Source: Shewanella sp. HN-41 (GTDB lineage: Bacteria; Pseudomonadota; Gammaproteobacteria; Enterobacterales; Shewanellaceae). From it: 64,000 nt of DNA. Position numbers and translations under genes: made by a program. Positions 5,834-64,000 of the stretch are shown piece after piece; position 1 is the first letter of the stretch, and every line of letters starts with the position of its first letter. The notes below the pieces were generated by a model that saw only the letters and a list, made by a program, of their open reading frames with translations, made no database searches and was not told the DNA's origin. The stretch lies in the NCBI RefSeq assembly GCF_000217915.1, contig NZ_AFOZ01000018.1, positions 1 to 64,000 on the forward strand. The letters run 5' to 3'.

Positions 5834-6888
5834 ATGACCACACACGCCACATCAAATCTTTTTGAAACCTATAAACTTAATGATGCCATTACCTTAAATA
5901 ACCGTATTTTAATGGCACCCCTAACCCGTTGTATGGCGGATGCCGATCTGGTGCCGACCGAAGATATGGTCGCCTATTATGCGCGCCGTGCCGAGGCGGG
6001 TTTGATCATCACAGAGGCGACAATTATTCGCCCCGACGGCCAAGGTTACCCCAATACCCCAGGTATTTTTACTCAGGCACAAATTGCTGGTTGGCGTAAG
6101 GTAACCGATGCGGTGCATGCCAAAGGTGGAAAAATTTTTGTGCAGTTATGGCATACGGGGCGCGTAGCGCACCCGCACTTTTTGGTGGTGGCGATGTGCT
6201 CGCCCCATCGGCACAGAAGATTGAAGGCTCAGTCCCCAGAATGCGTGAACTGACCTATGTCACGCCAAAACCTGCAACACTGGAGGATATTCAGGAGCTG
6301 GTGCGCGATTATGCCAAGGCGGCTGAGAATGCGATGGAAGCCGGTTTCGATGGGGTTGAAATCCATGGTGCAAATGGTTATTTGATCGATGCCTTCCTAC
6401 ACCATGACAGCAACCGCCGCACCGACGAATACGGTGGTACACCCGCTAAGATGGCGCGCTTTGCCCTCGAAGTCGTTGATGCTGTTGTCGCTCGAATTGG
6501 TAAAGATAGAACCGGTTTGCGTCTGTCTCCCGGTGCTTATTTTAATATGGCCACCGATAGTCGCGATCGGGCTGTATTTGACTATCTATTGCCTGAACTC
6601 GAACAACGCGATATCGCCTTTGTGCATATAGGTATTTTTGATGACAGTATGGAGTTTGACTATTTAGGCGGTCGAGCTTCCAGCTATGTGCGAGCACACT
6701 ATGGCAAAACGTTAGTAGGTGTCGGCAGTTATAGTGCCCAGAGTGCAAGTGAAGCGATTGCCGCAGATAAGTTTGATTTGATTGCTATCGGCCGCCCCTT
6801 TATCGCCAATCCAGACTATGTCGCTCGAGTGCGCGCTAGCGAGGAACTAGTGCCCTACAGCGATGACATGTTGACAACACTAGTTTAA
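5834..6888 (+). pseudogene. nemA: Old yellow enzyme / N-ethylmaleimide reductase, frameshifted
   Basis: FMN-dependent ene-reductase of the NemA family, which reduces electrophilic alkenes, maleimides and nitro esters. The first frame (5834-6253) runs from NRILMAPLTRCMAD to VQLWHTGRVAHPHF. The second (readable from 6148) resumes at FGGGDVLAPSAQKIEG and continues through EIHGANGYLIDAFL, NRRTDEYGG and IAIGRPFIANPD to a normal C-terminus. They join cleanly if one T is added to the five-T run at 6179-6183, so a single-base deletion splits the gene. Without repair the product stops at 139 residues and lacks much of the active site. It could also be a homopolymer sequencing error, since both halves look well conserved. 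Confidence 0.8.
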
Positions 6889-9768: not shown

Positions 9769-12411
9769 ATGATTGATGTGATCATTCCACAACAGCAGCA
9801 AGACAGTTGGTTAAGTGACTTAAATTTAGTCGCTGGGATGTTTGCATGCCATGGGCTTATCTTCGCCCGTGATGGTTCGGGGCCGTTGAGGCTATTATTA
9901 AAGTCAATGGCGGCCACGGATGAGGATATTGCATCGATACTCGGTCAGCTCAATGCTCATCACGGTTTTAAGCTACAGCAAAGCGTTACTCCACATATTA
10001 AAGCCACAGATATCTCTCAAACTGAGCCCGCTGATGAGTCGAGTGTCATCCATAGTTATCAAGCTATGGTCTCCAATGCCCAAGTGCAACTCACGCCACA
10101 TTTACTGGCTACCCCATTAGTCACAGACACCTCATTGGATCCGTTTTGGCAACAATACAATAGCTTAGGCAGTCTGATTTGCTTGCCGATATTATGGCCA
10201 TCGGGGGCCAGTTTTGGTGTCCTGTGTTTGTACCATAGTGCATCCCATCATTTAACGGGGCAGTCGCTGCAACTTGCTCAACTTAACGTTAATAGCATCC
10301 AGCTCGGTTTAACCGAGATCCTACGTCAGCATAGGGCCGATGAAGCACGGGCTCGTGGTGAGCAAAGCAACTTACAAGTGCTAGATTTACAAACTTTTAT
10401 CGATAGCTTTGAGGAGCATATTTGGGTCAAGAATGTCGATGGGATTTACACTAGCTGTAATCTGAGTGTTGAAAAAGCCTGGGAAATGCCGCGCAATGAG
10501 ATTGTGGGTAAGACAGATGTTGAATTATTCGGTAAAGATATCGCCGATATTTTCCTCGATGGTGACAGGCTCGCCATCGAAACGGGCACCCCCATTATCG
10601 TTGCCGAATGTTTAGATGGTAGCGAGCAGACAAAACACCTCTGGCTAGAAACCCTAAAAATGCCTGCCTTCACCGCAGATGGTCAGTTAGCGGGCGTGAT
10701 TGGTATGACGCGCAATATCTCTAAACATAAGGAAGTAGAAGAGCAACTTACACTCGCAACGAATGTATTTAAAAACTCAGTAGAAGGTGTCGTAGTAACC
10801 GATAGGCACGGCAATATCACGGATGTGAATGGTGCCTTTTACGAAATAACGGGTTACTCCCGTGAGGAATTGCTCGGACAAAACCCACGGCTGTTCAATT
10901 CGGAACGCCATGATAAAGCGTTTTTCGATGCCATGTGGAATGCCCTGTTAGAGACTGGTAAGTGGAACGGCGAGATCTGGAATCGCCGTAAAAATGGCAC
11001 TATCTTCCCGCAAAATATCACTATCAGCACTATTTATGACGATGTGGGGGATATCCGTTATTTCGTGGCGGTGTTTTCAGATATTTCCGCACAAAAACAG
11101 AGTGAAGCTCAACTCGCTCATTTAGCCTATTTCGATCCCCTGACGCACCTGCCGAATCGGATGAAATTAATGATGCAGTTAAAACAAGAGGTGAGGCACG
11201 CTAAGCGCCTGAATGCACAACTTGCGACTGTGATTATCGACGTCGACTTGTTTAAGCACATTAATGACAGCTTTGGCCATAGCATAGGTGATGAGATGCT
11301 AGTGGAACTAGCGAAGCGACTACGTAGCAAAGTAGGTGATCAGGATGTGTTGTCGCGTATTGGCGGTGATGAGTTTGTCGCATTGATCTCCGGTATTCAA
11401 AACTATGAGGATGCCACCCATGCGGTCAATCAATTGCGTGAGGTTTTTGAGCAACCTTTTGTGGTGAGCACTGGTGATCATCTACGCTTGACTGCAAGCA
11501 TGGGCGTCTCACTCTACCCGAACGATGGCACCGATGCGGACACCCTATTGCGCAACGCGGATGCGGCCATGTATCGGGCGAAGAACTATGGTCGCAATGA
11601 TTTTGCCTTCTACACTGAGTCTTTGACCAAACAATCGTTTGAGCATTTAAAGCTACAGAACGCCCTCTATGGTGCCATTGCCCAGAACGCTTTGTATTTG
11701 ATGTACCAGCCAAAACTGGATTTATCAACCCGTAAAACTGTGGGGTTTGAGGCACTGCTTCGCTGGAATGATCCGCAATTGGGGCAAATATCGCCAGCGG
11801 TGTTTATTCCCGTAGCCGAAAAAATTGGCCTTATTCATGATATTGGGTTGTGGGTGCTTGAAACGGCCTGCCGCCAAGGTGTTACTTGGCTGGCCGAAGG
11901 GCGGCATTTTGGGCGCATCGCCGTGAACGTAGCGGGCCAGCAATTGCAACGCAGCACTTTTGTTGACGATGTTAAACGGGTACTAGAGAAAACAGGCTTG
12001 CCAGCCAAATACTTAGAGTTAGAAGTCACTGAGAGTGTGATGATGCAGAATCCTGATCTGGCTATCCGAGACTTAAAGCTGCTTGGGGATCTGGGCATTG
12101 AATTGTCAGTGGATGATTTTGGGACAGGCTATTCATCACTGAATTATCTAAACAAATTGCCGATCCATAAACTCAAAATCGATCAATCCTTTGTGCGTGA
12201 CATTCCCTTCGATACTAACAATACCGCCATTGCGAAGGCCGTGATTGCCCTTGGCCATGCCCTAAAATTAGAGATTATTGCCGAAGGGGTTGAAACCGAG
12301 GAACAGGCGGATTTTCTAAGACAAAATCGGTGTGATCAAGCCCAGGGTTATCTCTTTAGTCGGCCCCAGTTACCCTCTGAGCTCGAGGCATTTTTCGCCA
12401 ATCCTGAGTGA
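9769..12411 (+). CDS. Cyclic-di-GMP protein: GAF-like, two PAS, GGDEF and EAL domains
   Basis: An approximately 880-aa soluble signalling protein. ATG at 9769 is preferred to a TTG five codons earlier. The first 190 residues look like a GAF domain (LICLPILWPSGASFGVLCLYH). Two PAS domains follow (from LQTFIDSFEEHIWVKNV, and from VFKNSVEGVVVTDRHG with ITGYSREELLGQNPRLFNS). The cyclase domain has an intact RIGGDEF. The EAL domain keeps FEALLRW, LELEVTESVM, DDFGTGYSSL and IAEGVETEEQ, so the phosphodiesterase residues look complete. Both activities are possible, and such hybrids often act mainly as phosphodiesterases. No membrane helices, so the input signal is probably cytoplasmic. Confidence 0.9.
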   Translation: MIDVIIPQQQQDSWLSDLNLVAGMFACHGLIFARDGSGPLRLLLKSMAATDEDIASILGQLNAHHGFKLQQSVTPHIKATDISQTEPADESSVIHSYQAMVSNAQVQLTPHLLATPLVTDTSLDPFWQQYNSLGSLICLPILWPSGASFGVLCLYHSASHHLTGQSLQLAQLNVNSIQLGLTEILRQHRADEARARGEQSNLQVLDLQTFIDSFEEHIWVKNVDGIYTSCNLSVEKAWEMPRNEIVGKTDVELFGKDIADIFLDGDRLAIETGTPIIVAECLDGSEQTKHLWLETLKMPAFTADGQLAGVIGMTRNISKHKEVEEQLTLATNVFKNSVEGVVVTDRHGNITDVNGAFYEITGYSREELLGQNPRLFNSERHDKAFFDAMWNALLETGKWNGEIWNRRKNGTIFPQNITISTIYDDVGDIRYFVAVFSDISAQKQSEAQLAHLAYFDPLTHLPNRMKLMMQLKQEVRHAKRLNAQLATVIIDVDLFKHINDSFGHSIGDEMLVELAKRLRSKVGDQDVLSRIGGDEFVALISGIQNYEDATHAVNQLREVFEQPFVVSTGDHLRLTASMGVSLYPNDGTDADTLLRNADAAMYRAKNYGRNDFAFYTESLTKQSFEHLKLQNALYGAIAQNALYLMYQPKLDLSTRKTVGFEALLRWNDPQLGQISPAVFIPVAEKIGLIHDIGLWVLETACRQGVTWLAEGRHFGRIAVNVAGQQLQRSTFVDDVKRVLEKTGLPAKYLELEVTESVMMQNPDLAIRDLKLLGDLGIELSVDDFGTGYSSLNYLNKLPIHKLKIDQSFVRDIPFDTNNTAIAKAVIALGHALKLEIIAEGVETEEQADFLRQNRCDQAQGYLFSRPQLPSELEAFFANPE

Positions 12412-12500
12412 TTACCAATGCTATGCTGCTCGACCTTGCGGCTAGTCGCACCCTGCCCAGTCTGTTAACATTGGCTCATTATGATTTGTGGTGATTTCCA

Positions 12501-13730
12501 ATGTCTTTCAACTCCCTTTCTTTGCACTCCCAGCTAGTGAACACCTTAGCCGAACTAGGCTATCAGCAACCGACACCTATCCAAGTTGAGGCTATTCCTG
12601 TGATTTTGGCAAAACAGGATCTGATGGCGGGAGCACAAACGGGGACGGGAAAGACGGCCGCATTTGCTTTACCGATTTTGCATGGACTGATGGCGGCCCC
12701 CTTAACGGAGGAGGCCCCAAGGCATATACGTGCCTTAGTGTTGGTCCCTACACGGGAGCTTGCGGTGCAAGTCCAGCAAAGTTTTGTTAACTATGCGAAA
12801 GGCACAGATATTCGTATTGGGATAGCCTATGGTGGCGTCAGTATCGATGCACAGGTCGAGGTGTTTAAAGCGGGAATCGATGTACTCATTGCGACTCCAG
12901 GGCGTTTGCTCGATCATCTACGTCAAGGCGCACTGAATCTTAAGCAGTTGAATGTGCTGGTGTTTGATGAGGCAGATCGCATGCTCGATATGGGTTTTAT
13001 GGATGAAATAAAGGCGGTACTCAAACAAGTGCCAGCAAAGAGACAAACCCTATTGTTTTCCGCCACCTTAGACGATGCCATTTTCTCTTTGAGTAAAAGT
13101 TTGCTGCGTGAGCCTAAATGGATTGAAGTGGCTAAACGCAATACCACGGCCACACAGGTAGAACAGCGGGTTTATGCTATAGATAGCGACCGTAAAACCG
13201 AATTTGTGAGCCACTTAATTCGCAGCCAAAATTGGCATCAAGTGCTTATTTTTAGCCGCACTAAACAGGGTGTCGATAAACTTGCCTTGCAACTCAATAA
13301 ACTCGACATTGCTACCCAAGCATTCCACGGTGATTTGTCCCAGGGGGCGCGAGAAAAAGTGCTGCAGGATTTTAAACAGGGCAAAATTCAAGTACTAGTG
13401 GCGACCGATGTGGCGGCTAGGGGGCTGGATATTGTTGAATTACAATATGTCATCAACTTTGAGCTGCCTTTTATTGCCGAAGATTATATTCATCGTATCG
13501 GTCGCACGGGCCGAGCGGGCAACGCAGGTCTGGCCATTACCCTATTTAGTCAAGAAGATGCCTTGTTGCTCGAAGAAGTCGAGGCAGTGCTCGATAAGCG
13601 TCTGCCCCAGCAATGGTATCCAGGCTTTGAGCCCGATTTTAATAAAATGGCCCCCGAGCCCCGACGCAACAGTAAAGCCGCCCAAAAACAGCGCGCCAAA
13701 AAACGCGCCCTCGGCGGCAAAAAGCGTTAA
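12501..13730 (+). CDS. DEAD-box RNA helicase, RhlE-type
   Basis: A 409-aa ATP-dependent RNA helicase. Visible motifs in order: Q motif region (GYQQPTPIQVEAIP), Walker A AQTGTGKT, PTRELA, TPGRLLDHL, DEADRMLDMGF, SAT, ARGLDIV and HRIGRTGRAG. The C-terminal tail is short and very basic (RRNSKAAQKQRAKKRALGGKKR), as in RhlE proteins that use it to bind RNA. It starts 89 bp after the GGDEF-EAL gene in the same direction. Its role is probably ribosome assembly or RNA turnover; the exact paralogue cannot be fixed. Confidence 0.9.
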   Translation: MSFNSLSLHSQLVNTLAELGYQQPTPIQVEAIPVILAKQDLMAGAQTGTGKTAAFALPILHGLMAAPLTEEAPRHIRALVLVPTRELAVQVQQSFVNYAKGTDIRIGIAYGGVSIDAQVEVFKAGIDVLIATPGRLLDHLRQGALNLKQLNVLVFDEADRMLDMGFMDEIKAVLKQVPAKRQTLLFSATLDDAIFSLSKSLLREPKWIEVAKRNTTATQVEQRVYAIDSDRKTEFVSHLIRSQNWHQVLIFSRTKQGVDKLALQLNKLDIATQAFHGDLSQGAREKVLQDFKQGKIQVLVATDVAARGLDIVELQYVINFELPFIAEDYIHRIGRTGRAGNAGLAITLFSQEDALLLEEVEAVLDKRLPQQWYPGFEPDFNKMAPEPRRNSKAAQKQRAKKRALGGKKR

Positions 13731-41137: not shown

Positions 41138-41325
41138 ATTTAGCACTCTCATTCCAGTGACACGCCCCTGTCGCCAACGGTCACTTCCATGGGAGTGCTT
41201 AATTGTTGTTAATTCCTGCGTAACTTTACCTCCAGTTTTTACACTATATCTTCCATTTTCGAGTAGATACATCAGTGTATATTCCCTTTTAACCATAGAG
41301 ATATATGGATGTCCTCACTCTTCTA
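41138..41325 (+). repeat. Palindrome-plus-tail element, copy 1 (short form)
   Basis: A 66-bp dyad (41138-41203) opens TTTAGCACTCTCATTCCAGT and closes with GTCACTTCCATGGGAGTGCT. A tail of about 120 bp follows with TTTTACACTATATCTTCC, ATTTTCGAGTAGATAC and TATGGATGTCCTCACTCTT. Dyad and tail align with the elements at 42855, 43959 and 44610. It ends about 14 bp from the azlD stop codon. Confidence 0.75.
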
Positions 41326-41338
41326 GCCAACCGCCTGA

Positions 41339-41641
41339 CTAATGAATAACGAAAAATAGCCCCATACTCAACACTGTGGTCAGCAAGGTATTACGGGTGA
41401 CGAGAGCGAGTACCGTCGCGACCACGGCGCAGATGAGGTAGCTGTTGTCCAAGCTGAGATCGAGCTGGCCTTCTTGCACAAAGACTATGGGCGCGAAGAT
41501 AGCGGTGAGGACTGCAGGGGCTGAGTAACTTAAAAAAGTTTGGGTGCCCTTACTTAATCGCAGCGGTAATTTAGGTTCGAGTAGTAAATGACGACTGATA
41601 AACACGATCGCCGCCATCGAGAAAATCATTAACCAGATCAT
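41339..41641 (-). CDS. azlD: AzlD-family branched-chain amino acid export subunit
   Basis: A 100-aa small membrane protein with four helices (MIWLMIFSMAAIVFISRHLLL, FLSYSAPAVLTAIFAPIVF, LICAVVATVLALVT, LLTTVLSMGLFFVI). Its start overlaps the azlC stop by 4 bp. AzlC and AzlD form an exporter of branched-chain amino acids. A degraded copy of its 3' end lies 2.3 kb downstream. Confidence 0.85.
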   Translation of the reverse strand: MIWLMIFSMAAIVFISRHLLLEPKLPLRLSKGTQTFLSYSAPAVLTAIFAPIVFVQEGQLDLSLDNSYLICAVVATVLALVTRNTLLTTVLSMGLFFVIH

Positions 41642-42417
41642 AGGGTTTCCTCAGTTTGTGTGGCTGTGGTTTCGGCTTTTACGGCTTGTTTATCTTCCCC
41701 GGTGACTTTGGCATAGAGCACACCTGCGGTCATCCCCGACAGGGCGGCAATTAAGAGCCCCGCCTGAATATTAAGCACGGCGCATACTACCGCTAAGGTG
41801 AGCGAAACCAGCACACAGACTAAGATGGACGGCTTTTTCACCGTGGGGACCACGAGTGCTATAAAGGTCGCAGCAATGGCGAAGTCGAGTCCTAATTCGC
41901 CTAAGTTGTCGATGGCATTGCCGGCGATAATGCCGAGCAGGGTGGCGAGGTTCCAACCGATATAAAAACTCAAGCCGCCGCCAAGGGCGTACCAAGGATC
42001 GAACCTATGTAACTTGCCTTGATTGGCGATGGCAAAGAGTTCATCCGTGAGCAAAAAGCCCAACGTTAGGCGCCACTTTAACGGCAAGGGACTGATCTGA
42101 CTGCGCATCGCCATGGCGTATAACAAGTGGCGCGAAGTGATAAGTAAAGTGGTGATTAAGATACTCCACAGGCCAATACCGGCTTTGACCATCCCCAGTG
42201 CCACTAACTGAGCGGCACCCGCATAGATAATCGCCGACATGGCCTGACTTTCTATGGGCGTGAGCCCGACTTCAATGGCGAATGAGCCCGCTAAAATGCC
42301 CCAAGGTACAACCGCTATCGTCAGCGGCATCATGGCTAAGGTGCCTTTTAAAAAAGCCTTGGTTTTGGTGGGATGCGCGGGAGCAACCTCAGGTTCTATA
42401 AGTTTGTCGGTGGTCAC
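41638..42417 (-). CDS. azlC: AzlC-family branched-chain amino acid exporter
   Basis: A 259-aa membrane protein with AzlC hallmarks: FLKGTLAMMPLTIAVVPWGILAGSFAIEVGLTPIESQAMSAIIYAGAAQLVALGMV, TTLLITSRHLLYAMAMR and LTDELFAIANQG. First gene of a two-gene operon with azlD. A broken AraC-type regulator lies just upstream on the same strand and may once have controlled it. Confidence 0.88.
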   Translation of the reverse strand: MTTDKLIEPEVAPAHPTKTKAFLKGTLAMMPLTIAVVPWGILAGSFAIEVGLTPIESQAMSAIIYAGAAQLVALGMVKAGIGLWSILITTLLITSRHLLYAMAMRSQISPLPLKWRLTLGFLLTDELFAIANQGKLHRFDPWYALGGGLSFYIGWNLATLLGIIAGNAIDNLGELGLDFAIAATFIALVVPTVKKPSILVCVLVSLTLAVVCAVLNIQAGLLIAALSGMTAGVLYAKVTGEDKQAVKAETTATQTEETL

Positions 42418-42561
42418 TTAGGCTCCTAAAAATAGTGGCGACGCTAGGGCCGCGGTTAAACAAAGAATGCTTACATAAGGTTTGCTTACTCTGTTAAGAC
42501 CACTCAGTGATGACAGGATGTAAGCAAGCATGAGCATGGCAGATTAACCTAAAGTGGTTGT

Positions 42562-42881
42562 TTAGGCTTGGATAATATTGCGGCCTATTTCTTTAGCAAA
42601 TTGCCCTGGGGTTACGCCGACGGTCTTTTAAAATGCCGATTCAAATGACTTTGATCGTGAAAACCACAATCGAGGGCGACATCGAGTAGCCTGTGTGCCT
42701 TGTTTAATTTACCCTTGGCGAGTCTCACTCTGGCCTGAATTTGGTAAGCGTGGGGCGGTAAGCCGTAATAATGTTGAAATTGCTTGAGTAAATAATAGGG
42801 GCTTAATCCCGCAAGTGTTGCCAGCTCTCCAAGGGAGATATCGACCGCAGGGTGGATGTGAAAGAGCGGCCATGCCGTCAA
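42562..42881 (-). pseudogene. AraC-family regulator remnant, 5' truncated and frameshifted
   Basis: Only the AraC DNA-binding domain remains: DISLGELATLAGLSPYYLLKQFQHYYGLPPHAYQIQARVRLAKGKL...LDVALDCGFHDQSHLNRHFK. The N-terminal effector domain is missing. At about 42855 the sequence changes into a palindromic repeat, so an element insertion or recombination removed the 5' part. Near 42630 the frame is lost: one extra A in the A-run would give HFKKTVGVTPGQFAKEIGRNIIQA, a normal family C-terminus ending at 42562. The reading frame as it stands stops at 42612. Confidence 0.75.
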
Positions 42882-43025
42882 CGGTCACTTCCATGAGAGT
42901 GCTTAATCTCGTTAATTCTTGTGCATCTTTTAGCGGCAGTTTTCACACTATCATCTTTTATTTTCAAGTAGATGCTTTAGATGCACACTTTTTCATCTCA
43001 GAAACATGTGGGTGTCCTGTCTTCT
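42855..43025 (+). repeat. Palindrome-plus-tail element, copy 2 (half dyad plus tail)
   Basis: Holds the right arm GTCACTTCCATGAGAGTGCT and the full tail (TTTTCACACTATCATC, ATTTTCAAGTAGATGC, AACATGTGGGTGTCCTGTC). The left arm is replaced by AraC gene sequence. The GATGTGAAAGAGCGGCCATG start matches the inner part of the 16.2-kb element in reverse. Confidence 0.75.
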
Positions 43026-57833: not shown

Positions 57834-59921
57834 CTAGAGTTTGTAACTCAGACTGAGCATGATCATCTGTGCCGTGTAGTCATGGCTATTGCTACCAAAG
57901 CCTACGACGTTCCAGATCCCATCGACGGCGATATCATTGGCGGCGTCATTGTCCTTATAGTTCTCAACTTTGTAATCGAAGCGCAGCGCCATTTTGTCGG
58001 TGGCTTGATATTGAGCATATAAGTTAATGTTATGTACTTTGGCAAAATAATCGCCATAGTCGCCCGTGATACCTTGTCTGACTTGAGTGTTACTGTCGGA
58101 GTCTGAGTAGGTGTAATCCAGTCCTAAACGTAACTTGTTCTCGAGCAGGTTGTTATAGCTGACACCTGCACCAATTACATCCACTTTGTCCTCAATGAAA
58201 CCTTGCCAAGTAGGTGTGCTGTAATTGCTGCTTCCCGCCTGTTCAGATTCAATGGTTTGGTGGTTGTAGAAGGCCGTTGCCAGTAAGTCGGCGGTGATCA
58301 TATAGCTGAGATTGGCATCGTAACTGGTGTCTTTTGACTCAGTTAAACCAATCACAGTATCGGTATAATCATCTAACGCATAACGGGCGCCGAAGTCGAT
58401 AGTCAGGCTCTCCATCGGCGTATGAGTGACGCGGGCTTCCACTTGGGTTCTGTCACGATCCGCTAGGTTATACTTACGTAACAAACTGTTGGTTTCAGAA
58501 GAAGTCCATTCAGAGGCTTGATATTGTGAGCCATCACGATTAGCGTAACTGCCTTTTACCCACATGTCCCACATATCGAAGCTATTGACTCTAAAACGTG
58601 CCCAAACGGTGTTTTCATCCGTGGTTTCACGGTCTTGATAATCACGTTGGTCACGCTTGAAATCATAACCACCGTCCAGCTTCATCCCATGGGTAATACG
58701 GTAATCTGCAGCCACTTTGAAGCGTTGACTGCGATTATCGTAAGGGGTGTTATAGGCCACCTTACCGTTGACATTATTGATGCTGATCTGGGTCCATTCT
58801 TCGATTTGGGTGTTGTTATCACGGTCGTGGTAGTCATAACTACCCGTTAAGCGCACAGAATTACTCACTTTGCTGACGACTTTGAGGTTCATCCCGAGCA
58901 GATCAACTTTGGCATCCACGGCTTCTGTGGGCACTTGATAGCCATAGCCTGAAGTGACTAAGGCCTGATCTTGGCTCATTTGCCCTGCCAGTATGCGACC
59001 CGATAACACATTAGTGCTGTCGTTATATTGACCCATTAGTGTCACTGTGTGCGACTGATTATCTGGGTCAAGGGCGATAGCACCGGAGGTTTGGGCACCA
59101 AAGGTGGGATTGAATGCACTGTCAAAATTTAGCTGGTTGTATTCGTTTTTGAAAATAGAACCATTGTAGTTAAGTGCCGTGAACCAACGATCACCTTTAA
59201 GCTTAACGCCAGCTTCTATGGTATCTGTAGTGTAATCCACAGGCTCGGCGAGCATCATCGATTGGTTGAAGAAACTACCTGAGGTTTGTTTTAAACCGGT
59301 TTTTTCTTCACGCATATAATTTACATAGGTGCTCCACAGGGATTCGCCTTGGTATTCAAAACCTAAACCTGTGCGTTCACGTTTAAGTGATAGCTCCAGT
59401 GAGTTCAGGCTATCCATCAATAGCGGCATTTGGCTGCTTGAACCGGCGGTAATCCAGTTATCAGGCAGGGTCAAATGGTCGCTACCGACACCTGAATAGG
59501 GTGTTAGGGCGCTGTTGGTGTCATAGGTGGCAATTTGGCGGTAGTTAACATTGACATTGTATTGCCCTTGTTTGCCCGCATTCACATCTAAGCGGCCACC
59601 ATCCATGCCCAATTGATAGGCTTCAATACTGGCACGGTAACCTTTCTCCCCTTTGAAGCTTAAATCGGCGTCGAGCTTACCCGCCACTTCATTGGAGGAC
59701 CCAAAGGCATTGGCGGAGCGAATATCGTCTTCACTGTTATAGCCAACACCTACACCGACGGTGCCGGATGTGCCCGTTTCAACGACGCAGCCTTTACAAC
59801 TCCAAGCGGAGAATTTGACTTTGTCAGTATTGGCATTATTGATGCCATAACCATCGGCTGCCACTGCAAAACCTGTGTTTGCCAATAACGCCAGAGTGAT
59901 CAAATTGAGTTTAAATTTCAT
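57834..59921 (-). CDS. mtrB: MtrB, outer-membrane beta-barrel of the electron conduit
   Basis: A 695-aa exported porin that sheathes MtrA and holds MtrC at the surface. Signal peptide KFKLNLITLALLANTGFAVAAD is followed by the characteristic CKGC motif (Cys42, Cys45 in SAWSCKGCVVETG). The remainder is amphipathic beta strands rich in aromatic residues, ending YTAQMIMLSLSYKL as an outer-membrane barrel signal. AAGGAG lies 8 bases before the start. It follows mtrA by 12 bp, so the two are cotranscribed. Confidence 0.95.
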   Translation of the reverse strand: MKFKLNLITLALLANTGFAVAADGYGINNANTDKVKFSAWSCKGCVVETGTSGTVGVGVGYNSEDDIRSANAFGSSNEVAGKLDADLSFKGEKGYRASIEAYQLGMDGGRLDVNAGKQGQYNVNVNYRQIATYDTNSALTPYSGVGSDHLTLPDNWITAGSSSQMPLLMDSLNSLELSLKRERTGLGFEYQGESLWSTYVNYMREEKTGLKQTSGSFFNQSMMLAEPVDYTTDTIEAGVKLKGDRWFTALNYNGSIFKNEYNQLNFDSAFNPTFGAQTSGAIALDPDNQSHTVTLMGQYNDSTNVLSGRILAGQMSQDQALVTSGYGYQVPTEAVDAKVDLLGMNLKVVSKVSNSVRLTGSYDYHDRDNNTQIEEWTQISINNVNGKVAYNTPYDNRSQRFKVAADYRITHGMKLDGGYDFKRDQRDYQDRETTDENTVWARFRVNSFDMWDMWVKGSYANRDGSQYQASEWTSSETNSLLRKYNLADRDRTQVEARVTHTPMESLTIDFGARYALDDYTDTVIGLTESKDTSYDANLSYMITADLLATAFYNHQTIESEQAGSSNYSTPTWQGFIEDKVDVIGAGVSYNNLLENKLRLGLDYTYSDSDSNTQVRQGITGDYGDYFAKVHNINLYAQYQATDKMALRFDYKVENYKDNDAANDIAVDGIWNVVGFGSNSHDYTAQMIMLSLSYKL

Positions 59922-59933
59922 TTTCTCGTCTCC

Positions 59934-60923
59934 TTAGCGCTGTAATAGCTTGCCAGATGGATGGTTAGAACCATGGACCTGACTATGGCAATTTAAGCAG
60001 CTTCTTCCACCTGTAAAGGCATTGTCACCGACGTTAGAACCTAAACCAGTGTTACCTAAGTAGGCATTGCTGGCATGGCCATCACTGGCGTGACATTGCT
60101 GACACAGCTGCGGTGCGCGGGTTTTCAGCATGGCATCATTCACACTACCGTGAGGATTATGGCAGGTGACACAATTCTCAGTGACGGGTGCATGCTCCCA
60201 CAATTTTGGGCCGCGTTTTTCGGCGTGGCAGGAGTAACAAGTATCATTAATACTAGGTTTGTTAAGATCGGAATCTGTCATGCTCCCATGGGGATTATGG
60301 CAATCGCTACAGGTCATTTGGGCCCATTTTAATGGATGACTTGAGCGTTTGTTCATATCCGCTTTTTGCTTGGTATGGCAGCTGGTACACACTTCCATTT
60401 CAGTGTTTTTGGCAAGCACTGGATCTTTGGCTACGTGTACTTGATGGCAAGAGGCACAAGCAACATCTGCGTTGTCATGGTGACCGCCATTCCAAGACAT
60501 GCGTTTATCGTCTTGGTGACAGCTCATACATACGCTGTTTTGCTTGTCGGCACTTAAGGTTGACTGCTTACCAAAAGTGATCATCGGCTCGTTGCCGCCC
60601 TTGTTATGCTGACCCATAGGGCCGTGGCAAGCCTCACATTGTAGGCCTGCCATTGGGCTCTTGGAGGAGTCAATGGTGCCGTGGACACCTTTGAAAAGGT
60701 CCATGACTTTTTCGGATTTTTTATGGCACATCAAGCAAGAATCGGCGCCTTTAGGTGAGTAGTTGCCTTCGGCAAACTTCTTATCTAGGGTCGCTTCGAC
60801 TTGCTCAGGGGTCATTTTTTCATCCCACTTGGAGGCGTGAGCGCTCGGTGCGATGGCAAATGCCATGACCGCTGACATCATTAATGCCGGCAGTAGGTTT
60901 TTCATTTTGTGACTGTTCTTCAT
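59934..60923 (-). CDS. mtrA: MtrA, periplasmic decahaem c-type cytochrome
   Basis: A 329-aa cytochrome that carries electrons through the MtrB barrel. ATG at 60923 ([30 protein letters not shown]) places the signal peptide correctly; the upstream in-frame start adds nine residues. Ten CXXCH motifs are present (CLMCH, CEACH, CMSCH, CASCH, CTSCH, CSDCH, CYSCH, CVTCH, CQQCH, CLNCH), the full set. It starts 69 bp after the mtrC stop. Confidence 0.95.
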
Positions 60924-60992
60924 AGTAGGCTTCCCAATTTGTCCCAACAAAATTCAAGAAAGGGGGAGTTCAACTCCCCCTGCTTGGGCAAA

Positions 60993-62946
60993 TTACATTT
61001 TCACTTGAGTGTGATCTGCAACTGTTGGGGTATGGCAGTAGAAACAGGTTTCTGACTGTGCCGCTTGGTTGGCTTGAACATAATCACCGTTCACAATCGC
61101 GCCCATGTTTTCTAAGCCGTGGCCGATGGATTCTGGCGCGTGGCATGAAGTACAAGTCGCCGTGATTGGAGTGGTGTATTTACCTGCTGAAGTCGCCAGT
61201 GCACCTTTAACCTTGAATGCATCTAGGTTGAAGTCGTTATGGCACTGAGTACATTCTTTGATCACACCTTGCTCACCGTGGACAACGTGCAGTTTCATCT
61301 CGAAACCACCTTTGTTTGCACCACTTGCATAGGTGCCGTCAGGTGTATGGCAGGCCACACAGGCATCCACACCCACAATTGGGTTATTGTTTGCGTCTTT
61401 GGCATGTGACACTTGTTCTGTCATCACAAAGCCTGAGTGGTGACCTTTGTGAAGCTCGAAAGTACCACTGTGGCAACCTTGACAAGTGCTGAAGTTCACT
61501 GAGTTTACATGACGCATGCTAGGTGCATTACCGGATTTAGTGCCAAACACTAACTCGGCTTTCATACTAGTGGTTGCGCTGTCAGTAGTACAAGCCGTCA
61601 GTGTGGTACCAGTGTTACACATTTCCAGACCGATAAAGGTAAAGGCGGTATCTGTGTCGCCAGCACCAAAGGGGAGTGCAGGTGTTGTGAATACCAGTTT
61701 ACCGTCAGCTAAGGTCACACCTTCTTGTAGTGCACCATCTTTGACCAGATCTTTGGCTACTTTAGCGGCACCGCTACCAGGGCTCTTGTTGTAGCCCATG
61801 ATCGGGAAGTTAGGACCCACGTTAGTGATAGTTTCTAAACGTTTGATCTTATCTTGTAACGCTTGCTGCATCGATGGCATTGCCGTCTTTATCTAAGATA
61901 GACACGGTTAATACCGCAGTATTGTCGTCTTGACCTGCCAGCGTTGCTGACATACCTAGCTGAGCGATAACCGCTTTCTTCTCGGCGGTTTTGCCCGTGT
62001 GTAACTCGGCTGTCCAATCGCTGTTATGACAGGCAATACAGTTGGAGTTGTCAAGTTGTTGTGAGTGGCCGTTACCCGCAGCAAAATCAACGGCGGTATG
62101 GCAGCTACCACAAGTTGCGGCTGTGGGGATTCGAGACCAATTGCTCCAATCTGGCGTAGCATCATGTTGCGTATGACAGCTTTGGCAGCTTTCTAATGAA
62201 CCTAAGGTTAAGTCTTTGTGTTTAGCGTGAACGAGAACATTGAACTCTTTACCTACGCCCACTTTGCCAGCCGTATGGCAAGTCGCACAGTAGTTCACAT
62301 CGGAATAAGCACCGCTATGCTTTACATTGGCTAAGTCTTGGTGGCAAGTGTTACAGCTTTCAGTGGCAACAATTTTGCGGCTGTATGTGGGGGCGGCACC
62401 CGTATCGGCAGTAAAGTCGACAAAGGCATTACTATTAGGGACTTGAGTACCATCGAGTAACGGTGTGTTATAGGCACGAATTAACACTCGTTGGGCTAAT
62501 TGTGCATTGTACGTGACCTTAGTGTTTGCGGTCAGGTTCATATTGAAGGTATAGCTGTAGTGACCATTCTTCATGTCCACAAATGTACCTGGACAGGTTG
62601 AAGCCACATCACAGGTCTCATCACCAAAGTATTGCCACTGAGAGGCGTTACCTGCACCTGTTGCACCTTGCGGGATCAACTGTGCTGCGGCGAAGCGCAT
62701 TTTTTGCAGACCTACTACTGGTAAATCGTCTTCGTTAGTGACGGTGAATTCAACACTAGGCACACCGTTAGCCACAACTGATTTGTTAAAGGTAAAATTA
62801 AGGGTTTGAATCGCTGGTGCGGGTTCGCCACCAGGTTCGCCAGGATTGCCATCTTTACCATCGCTGCCACCACAACCAGTTAAGGCCATAGTGACGGCAC
62901 TTGCTGCCAGCAGCAGTGCGATTTTAGATTTTTGTGCGTTCATCAT
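60993..62946 (-). pseudogene. mtrC: MtrC, surface decahaem cytochrome, split by a one-base frameshift
   Basis: Terminal reductase of the Mtr conduit. The first frame (62946-61849, 365 aa) has a lipoprotein signal with LTGC and haem motifs CNTCH, CATCH, CQSCH, CGSCH, CIACH. The second (readable from 61880 to 60993) has CQGCH, CVACH, CTQCH, CTSCH, CFYCH and a normal end HTQVKM. Near 61855 the coding strand reads GTTACAAGATAAG. Removing one base gives V-Q-D-K-I-K and fuses both halves into about 650 aa, close to the usual MtrC size. As it stands the product ends after the fifth haem and should not reach full electron transfer. Either a real loss-of-function mutation or a sequencing error. Confidence 0.88.
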
Positions 62947-63280: not shown

Positions 63281-64000
63281 TTAATTACCGTGGACTTTCA
63301 TTAACTGCGCAGGAGTATGACAAGTTGCACAGCTTTCAGACGCACGGGTTTGAACATCGACTGTACTGGTACCATCTAAGATACCGCCGTTAGCTTCAAT
63401 GTGAGACTTAGCCGCATCTGACAGGTATTTTTGGTGACAGCTTAAACATGCTCCAGCATCAGAAGATACCCAAACACCCGCTTTGTCGTAGGTTGTTGAG
63501 TTTGGATAAATCCATGTACGCTCGGGAGCGCGGCCAAGTTCAATACCTGTGACGACACCACTCTTTTCGACGTGGCAAGTCGCACAATCACTCTTAAGAA
63601 CAGTGCCTGATTGAACTCCCGCATATTTCAGATAGTGTCCTTCAGCTTCATGGGCTTTCCAAGCAAAGCTGGTTGCTTGGTCAAACTTACCTGAATTTCG
63701 CACTGTCTCTTTAAGTGTTTTGTCTGGAGTATGACAAGTTTGGCAGTTTACCCCATTATCATAATGCAGAACCTGCTGATTATGACAGCCTTGACAATTT
63801 GATGTGTCAACAATAGGGCGACGTGTAGCTGGTGTCGCTGAGCTATCTACACCACTATCTTTCCAGACAAAATGGTATGGTGCTTCTTTGACAGGGACCT
63901 TACGTACGTCAGCTGTAGCACAATCAGTCATCACAACATCTGCAACACCGTAACCACCATTGTTGAAGCATACTTCTAATGCTGACCAGAGTTCGAACGT
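63281..64000 (-). CDS. omcA: OmcA-type surface multihaem cytochrome, C-terminal part (cut by the window edge)
   Basis: The last 239 residues of an outer-membrane multihaem cytochrome; the frame is open to base 64000, so the 5' part lies outside. Five CXXCH motifs are visible (CQGCH, CQTCH, CATCH, CLSCH, CATCH) and the end SCATCHTPAQLMKVHGN fits OmcA. Position upstream of mtrC matches the Shewanella order omcA-mtrC-mtrA-mtrB. In some species this slot holds UndA, an eleven-haem relative, which cannot be excluded from the fragment. Confidence 0.85.
   Translation of the reverse strand, partial: TFELWSALEVCFNNGGYGVADVVMTDCATADVRKVPVKEAPYHFVWKDSGVDSSATPATRRPIVDTSNCQGCHNQQVLHYDNGVNCQTCHTPDKTLKETVRNSGKFDQATSFAWKAHEAEGHYLKYAGVQSGTVLKSDCATCHVEKSGVVTGIELGRAPERTWIYPNSTTYDKAGVWVSSDAGACLSCHQKYLSDAAKSHIEANGGILDGTSTVDVQTRASESCATCHTPAQLMKVHGN

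Follow-up and report, generated by a model that had tools for sequence, protein, structure and literature searches.

Probable consensus error at a one-base break between the pentahaem halves of mtrC in the Shewanella sp. HN-41 draft genome

The mtrC locus as written

The draft genome of Shewanella sp. HN-41 presents mtrC in two pieces, which raises the question of whether this strain has lost half of its decahaem cytochrome MtrC or whether the break belongs to the assembly. Taken at face value, it would have the strain scored, probably wrongly, as incapable of making its main metal-reduction cytochrome. The window, i.e. the whole stretch of 64,000 nucleotides that was analysed, lay on a contig of 80,299 bases (C30) in a draft of 4.41 Mb and 47 contigs. 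Within it, mtrC ran from 62946 to 60993 on the minus strand in two overlapping frames. Frame 1 (61849..62946, minus strand) encoded 365 aa and had a lipobox-like LTGC at residues 22-25 (pattern only), as expected of a lipoprotein signal, followed by CXXCH motifs at residues 198, 220, 254, 279 and 303, which correspond to haems 1-5. Frame 2 (60993..61880, minus strand) encoded 295 aa with CXXCH motifs at residues 133, 174, 210, 243 and 279 (haems 6-10), and inspection by eye revealed no N-terminal signal in it. Together the two frames held ten CXXCH motifs, five in each, in agreement with the first-pass annotation. The one-base shift that it had placed between the pentahaem halves could be narrowed to a T doublet of the coding strand at 61858..61859, where the window had one base more than every one of the 29 aligned relatives.

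Both halves were assigned to the OmcA/MtrC family (NCBIfam). When the halves were scored apart with TIGR03507, frame 1 reached 213.5 bits and frame 2 reached 91.7 bits, against a cut-off of 209.3. Frame 1 aligned to residues 1-363 of 6r2q chain C (E 1.4e-229), and frame 2 aligned to residues 320-608 of 6qyc and 362-650 of 6r2q. The locus was thus similar to Shewanella MtrC (TIGR03507; 6r2q, 6qyc, 4lm8) in that each half matched its own part of the protein and the omcA/mtrA/mtrB context was present. Unlike the solved Shewanella MtrC, however, the window gene as written was not one unbroken frame but two.

The neighbouring genes were in the order omcA before mtrC, with mtrA and mtrB after it. 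Both mtrA (59934..60950, minus strand; 338 aa with 10 CXXCH, its start set mechanically) and mtrB (57834..59921, minus strand; 695 aa) were open, as had been stated earlier of these two genes. The omcA gene, also on the minus strand, occupied 63281..64000 of the window and continued to contig position 65491; it was open and encoded 736 aa with 10 CXXCH. Outside the window we found open frames for MtrF (639 aa, 10 CXXCH), MtrD (321 aa, 10 CXXCH) and MtrE. MtrA and MtrB were named by size, motif and order rather than by family search, and OmcA, MtrF, MtrE and MtrD were likewise named by order, size and motif.

Comparison with relatives and the age of the break

A search of the genus with the mtrC DNA covered 129 genomes including the HN-41 assembly, and 116 of them matched, namely 115 others and HN-41 itself; plasmid records searched with mtrC gave no match. 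The best 29 by score among the 115 other genomes were aligned in detail. The closest of these 29 had 88% DNA identity to the window mtrC, and the named relatives from a scan with frame 1 were Shewanella. The comparison with related strains, which had been proposed as a check on the break, set the window apart, since none of the 29 had the extra base. Five relatives did not otherwise differ around the site; on the coding strand they had a single T in place of the window's TT. Ten CXXCH motifs lay in a single frame in all 29 relatives, and a full-length decahaem frame of 650-691 aa, counted from the first M, was present in 28. The remaining one (G013; the locus is on its contig C8, reverse strand) had a stop codon in frame, located after the first domain and ahead of haem one, and beyond it the ten CXXCH motifs followed in one stretch of 484 residues. 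Its mtrC was also interrupted, in a different manner and at a different place from the window gene, so loss of mtrC may occur.

The same alignment bore on the idea that the two halves are joined by programmed +1 frameshifting. The frames do overlap, and the stop directly followed an AGA codon at the shift; however, the shift site was not conserved, the extra base being found in none of the 29 relatives, and visual inspection showed no stimulating element. We rejected this explanation as barely conceivable.

The frames themselves gave information on the age of the break. Both were open to their ends, and neither half contained further damage. According to the Nei-Gojobori method, dN/dS against six relatives was 0.038-0.071 for the first 360 codons of mtrC and 0.037-0.060 for the last 290 codons, while a pair of intact relatives gave 0.040 and 0.053 between them. 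Judging from these substitutions, both halves look conserved. Since both frames were open and dN/dS was low, the break was either an error or very recent, and an older decay of mtrC was rejected on the same grounds. These dN/dS values do not separate a consensus error from a very recent mutation.

Single-base breaks across the assembly

The rate of such breaks in the draft was estimated by comparing 886,487 bases of the HN-41 assembly (contigs C30, C2, C11, C8 and C5) with 900,000 bases of one complete relative (G077); the frames compared were mechanical, of at least 100 aa and at least 75% identity. With all rows kept, a frame change was found for 25 of 520 G077 frames vs 5 of 522 in the reverse direction (p ~1.5e-4), and four of the five reverse changes were pieces of split genes of the HN-41 assembly itself. 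After five doubtful rows had been dropped, 20 of the 520 frames, including mtrC and feoB, were split by single-base indels, vs 1 of 522 in the reverse direction (Fisher p ~9e-6). In three of the dropped rows (C2:165972, C11:12394 and C11:141283) the first segment was at most 29 aa and probably upstream of the true start; C2:144284 was a 103-aa transposase-like frame from another region, and C8:108416 was a two-base change. An earlier pass over 500 kb, which counted frame changes or in-frame stops, had given 24 cases among 302 G077 frames and 11 among 304 HN-41 frames; the in-frame stops were left unused, several of those inspected being near the mechanical start.

The 20 split genes contained 22 single-base indels, half of them insertions and half deletions (11 each). 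In the 886 kb sampled this amounts to a frame-breaking indel about every 40 kb, and extrapolation from this sample would give about 110 such breaks assembly-wide. Homopolymer runs of four bases or more, which made up 6.6% of the sampled bases, contained 19 of the 22 indels, and A/T runs predominated. Homopolymer indel errors of draft assemblies typically arise with 454 and Ion Torrent reads, and the HN-41 assembly resembled drafts of this kind in that single-base indels were in excess in the A/T runs of its conserved genes. The mtrC site was unlike them, because there one T was read as two and no run was present; in this respect the first-pass annotation, which had placed the shift outside a homopolymer, was right. 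Only three of the 22 indels were scored at a run of two bases, and mtrC departed most clearly from the homopolymer pattern, the other two being feoB, where a T run could be chosen by eye, and ftsY, which lay in a repeat-rich stretch.

According to the NCBIfam names of the G077 copies, the split genes included murA, murJ, era, ftsY, thyA, aceF, mutH, hcp and feoB. Breaks of the same type as in mtrC were present at about codon 22 of murA and codon 42 of murJ, and a whole-genome search found no second copy of murA or murJ, only two pieces of each. The same kind of search returned era in three pieces, plus other GTPases at 30-42% identity. Both murA and murJ are essential for peptidoglycan synthesis, and a cell with both of them cut should not live. 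Therefore, many of these shifts must be consensus errors, and since the other breaks resembled those in murA and murJ, most of them should be errors too. It had been argued earlier that a sequencing slip was less likely at mtrC because the shift was not in a homopolymer. This argument was weakened by the sampling, in which a frame-breaking indel occurred about every 40 kb and reached even genes such as murA and murJ.

The mutH gene was itself split in a T run (contig C11 of the HN-41 assembly, 41255-41924). Because of this split we considered whether HN-41 might be a mismatch-repair mutator strain that truly gathers run-length mutations, with mtrC, feoB and nemA as casualties, a picture that the predominance of indels in A/T runs would also fit. 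It was rejected as highly improbable, since a living mutator should not carry breaks near the beginning of murA and murJ, and the mtrC site was not a run. The mutH break is probably an error as well.

Two further genes of the contig were broken in a similar way. The nemA gene (5834..6888, plus strand), assigned to the N-ethylmaleimide reductase family (NCBIfam), was in two frames and lacked one base of a T run compared with all eight relatives searched; it lay within the 886 kb yet outside the count, because its G077 counterpart was missing from the stretches taken. The feoB gene, outside the window (contig 71402-73757, which is 11103-13458 of locus L039), had one extra base compared with three relatives. 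The script scored this base at a run of two C, and by eye it was placeable in a T run of four. Since three breaks on an 80-kb contig were close to the assembly rate of about one per 40 kb, no special fate of the iron genes was needed.

Consensus error or recent loss of the second half

We consider it likely that the extra base in mtrC is a consensus error, because the same draft breaks single-copy genes that are thought to be essential. The T would have been added in the draft consensus, and the mtrC break would belong to the single-base error class of this assembly, even though there is no homopolymer at its site. The living strain would then most likely carry an ordinary single-frame decahaem MtrC.

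The main alternative is that the extra base is real and that the C-terminal half of MtrC was lost very recently, either in the wild or during laboratory culture. The strain would then make a 365-aa lipoprotein that carries haems 1-5 and could remain on MtrAB, leaving terminal reduction to OmcA or to other cytochromes. Three observations together led us to keep a real mutation as a tentative second reading: the site has no homopolymer run, whereas 19 of the 22 indels do; the mtrC of G013 is interrupted, the only one among the 29 relatives with an in-frame stop; and PMC9415397 reports frameshift variants that affect two of the four omcA/mtrC genes when S. putrefaciens strains are compared. In addition, PMC12304082 describes an engineered half of MtrC (domains I and II, 9eov) that folds and docks on MtrAB. 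On the other hand, mtrC was full-length in nearly all of the aligned relatives, neither half of the window gene had other damage, and the excess of single-base breaks in the assembly cannot consist of real mutations only. With OmcA, MtrD, MtrE and MtrF open, a strain with a real break could fall back on OmcA. The first-pass annotation had suggested that the strain would rely on OmcA or another cytochrome; the open frames are compatible with this, whereas its premise, i.e. the reading of the split as loss of MtrC in the strain, was weakly supported.

A more specific form of real loss would be a natural strain in which a five-haem half-MtrC stays bound to MtrAB and forms a shortened conduit, while OmcA or another cytochrome performs the terminal reduction. 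Like the engineered protein, window frame 1 ended after haem five, and its residues 10-321 matched residues 9-322 of 9eov_A. However, frame 1 stopped 44 residues beyond the matched part, and 9eov was truncated by design in S. oneidensis MR-1, whereas the truncation in the window is probably not real. In PMC12304082, domains I and II of MtrC alone reduced OmcA, flavin and Fe(III) citrate poorly. We consider such a natural half-MtrC strain improbable. If it existed, it would parallel in nature the engineered protein made of MtrC domains I and II, and a confirmed break would make the role of domains III and IV testable in a natural background.

Given the break counts, claims of gene loss made from the HN-41 draft are unsafe without the reads. 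One locus of the window had a different appearance from mtrC. At about 42550-42900 on the minus strand there was a remnant of an AraC-like regulator, in which only the C-terminal stretch matched and several frames were broken; the regulator was 304 aa in G087 and G077. Judged by its sequence, this remnant, in contrast to mtrC, looks like true decay.
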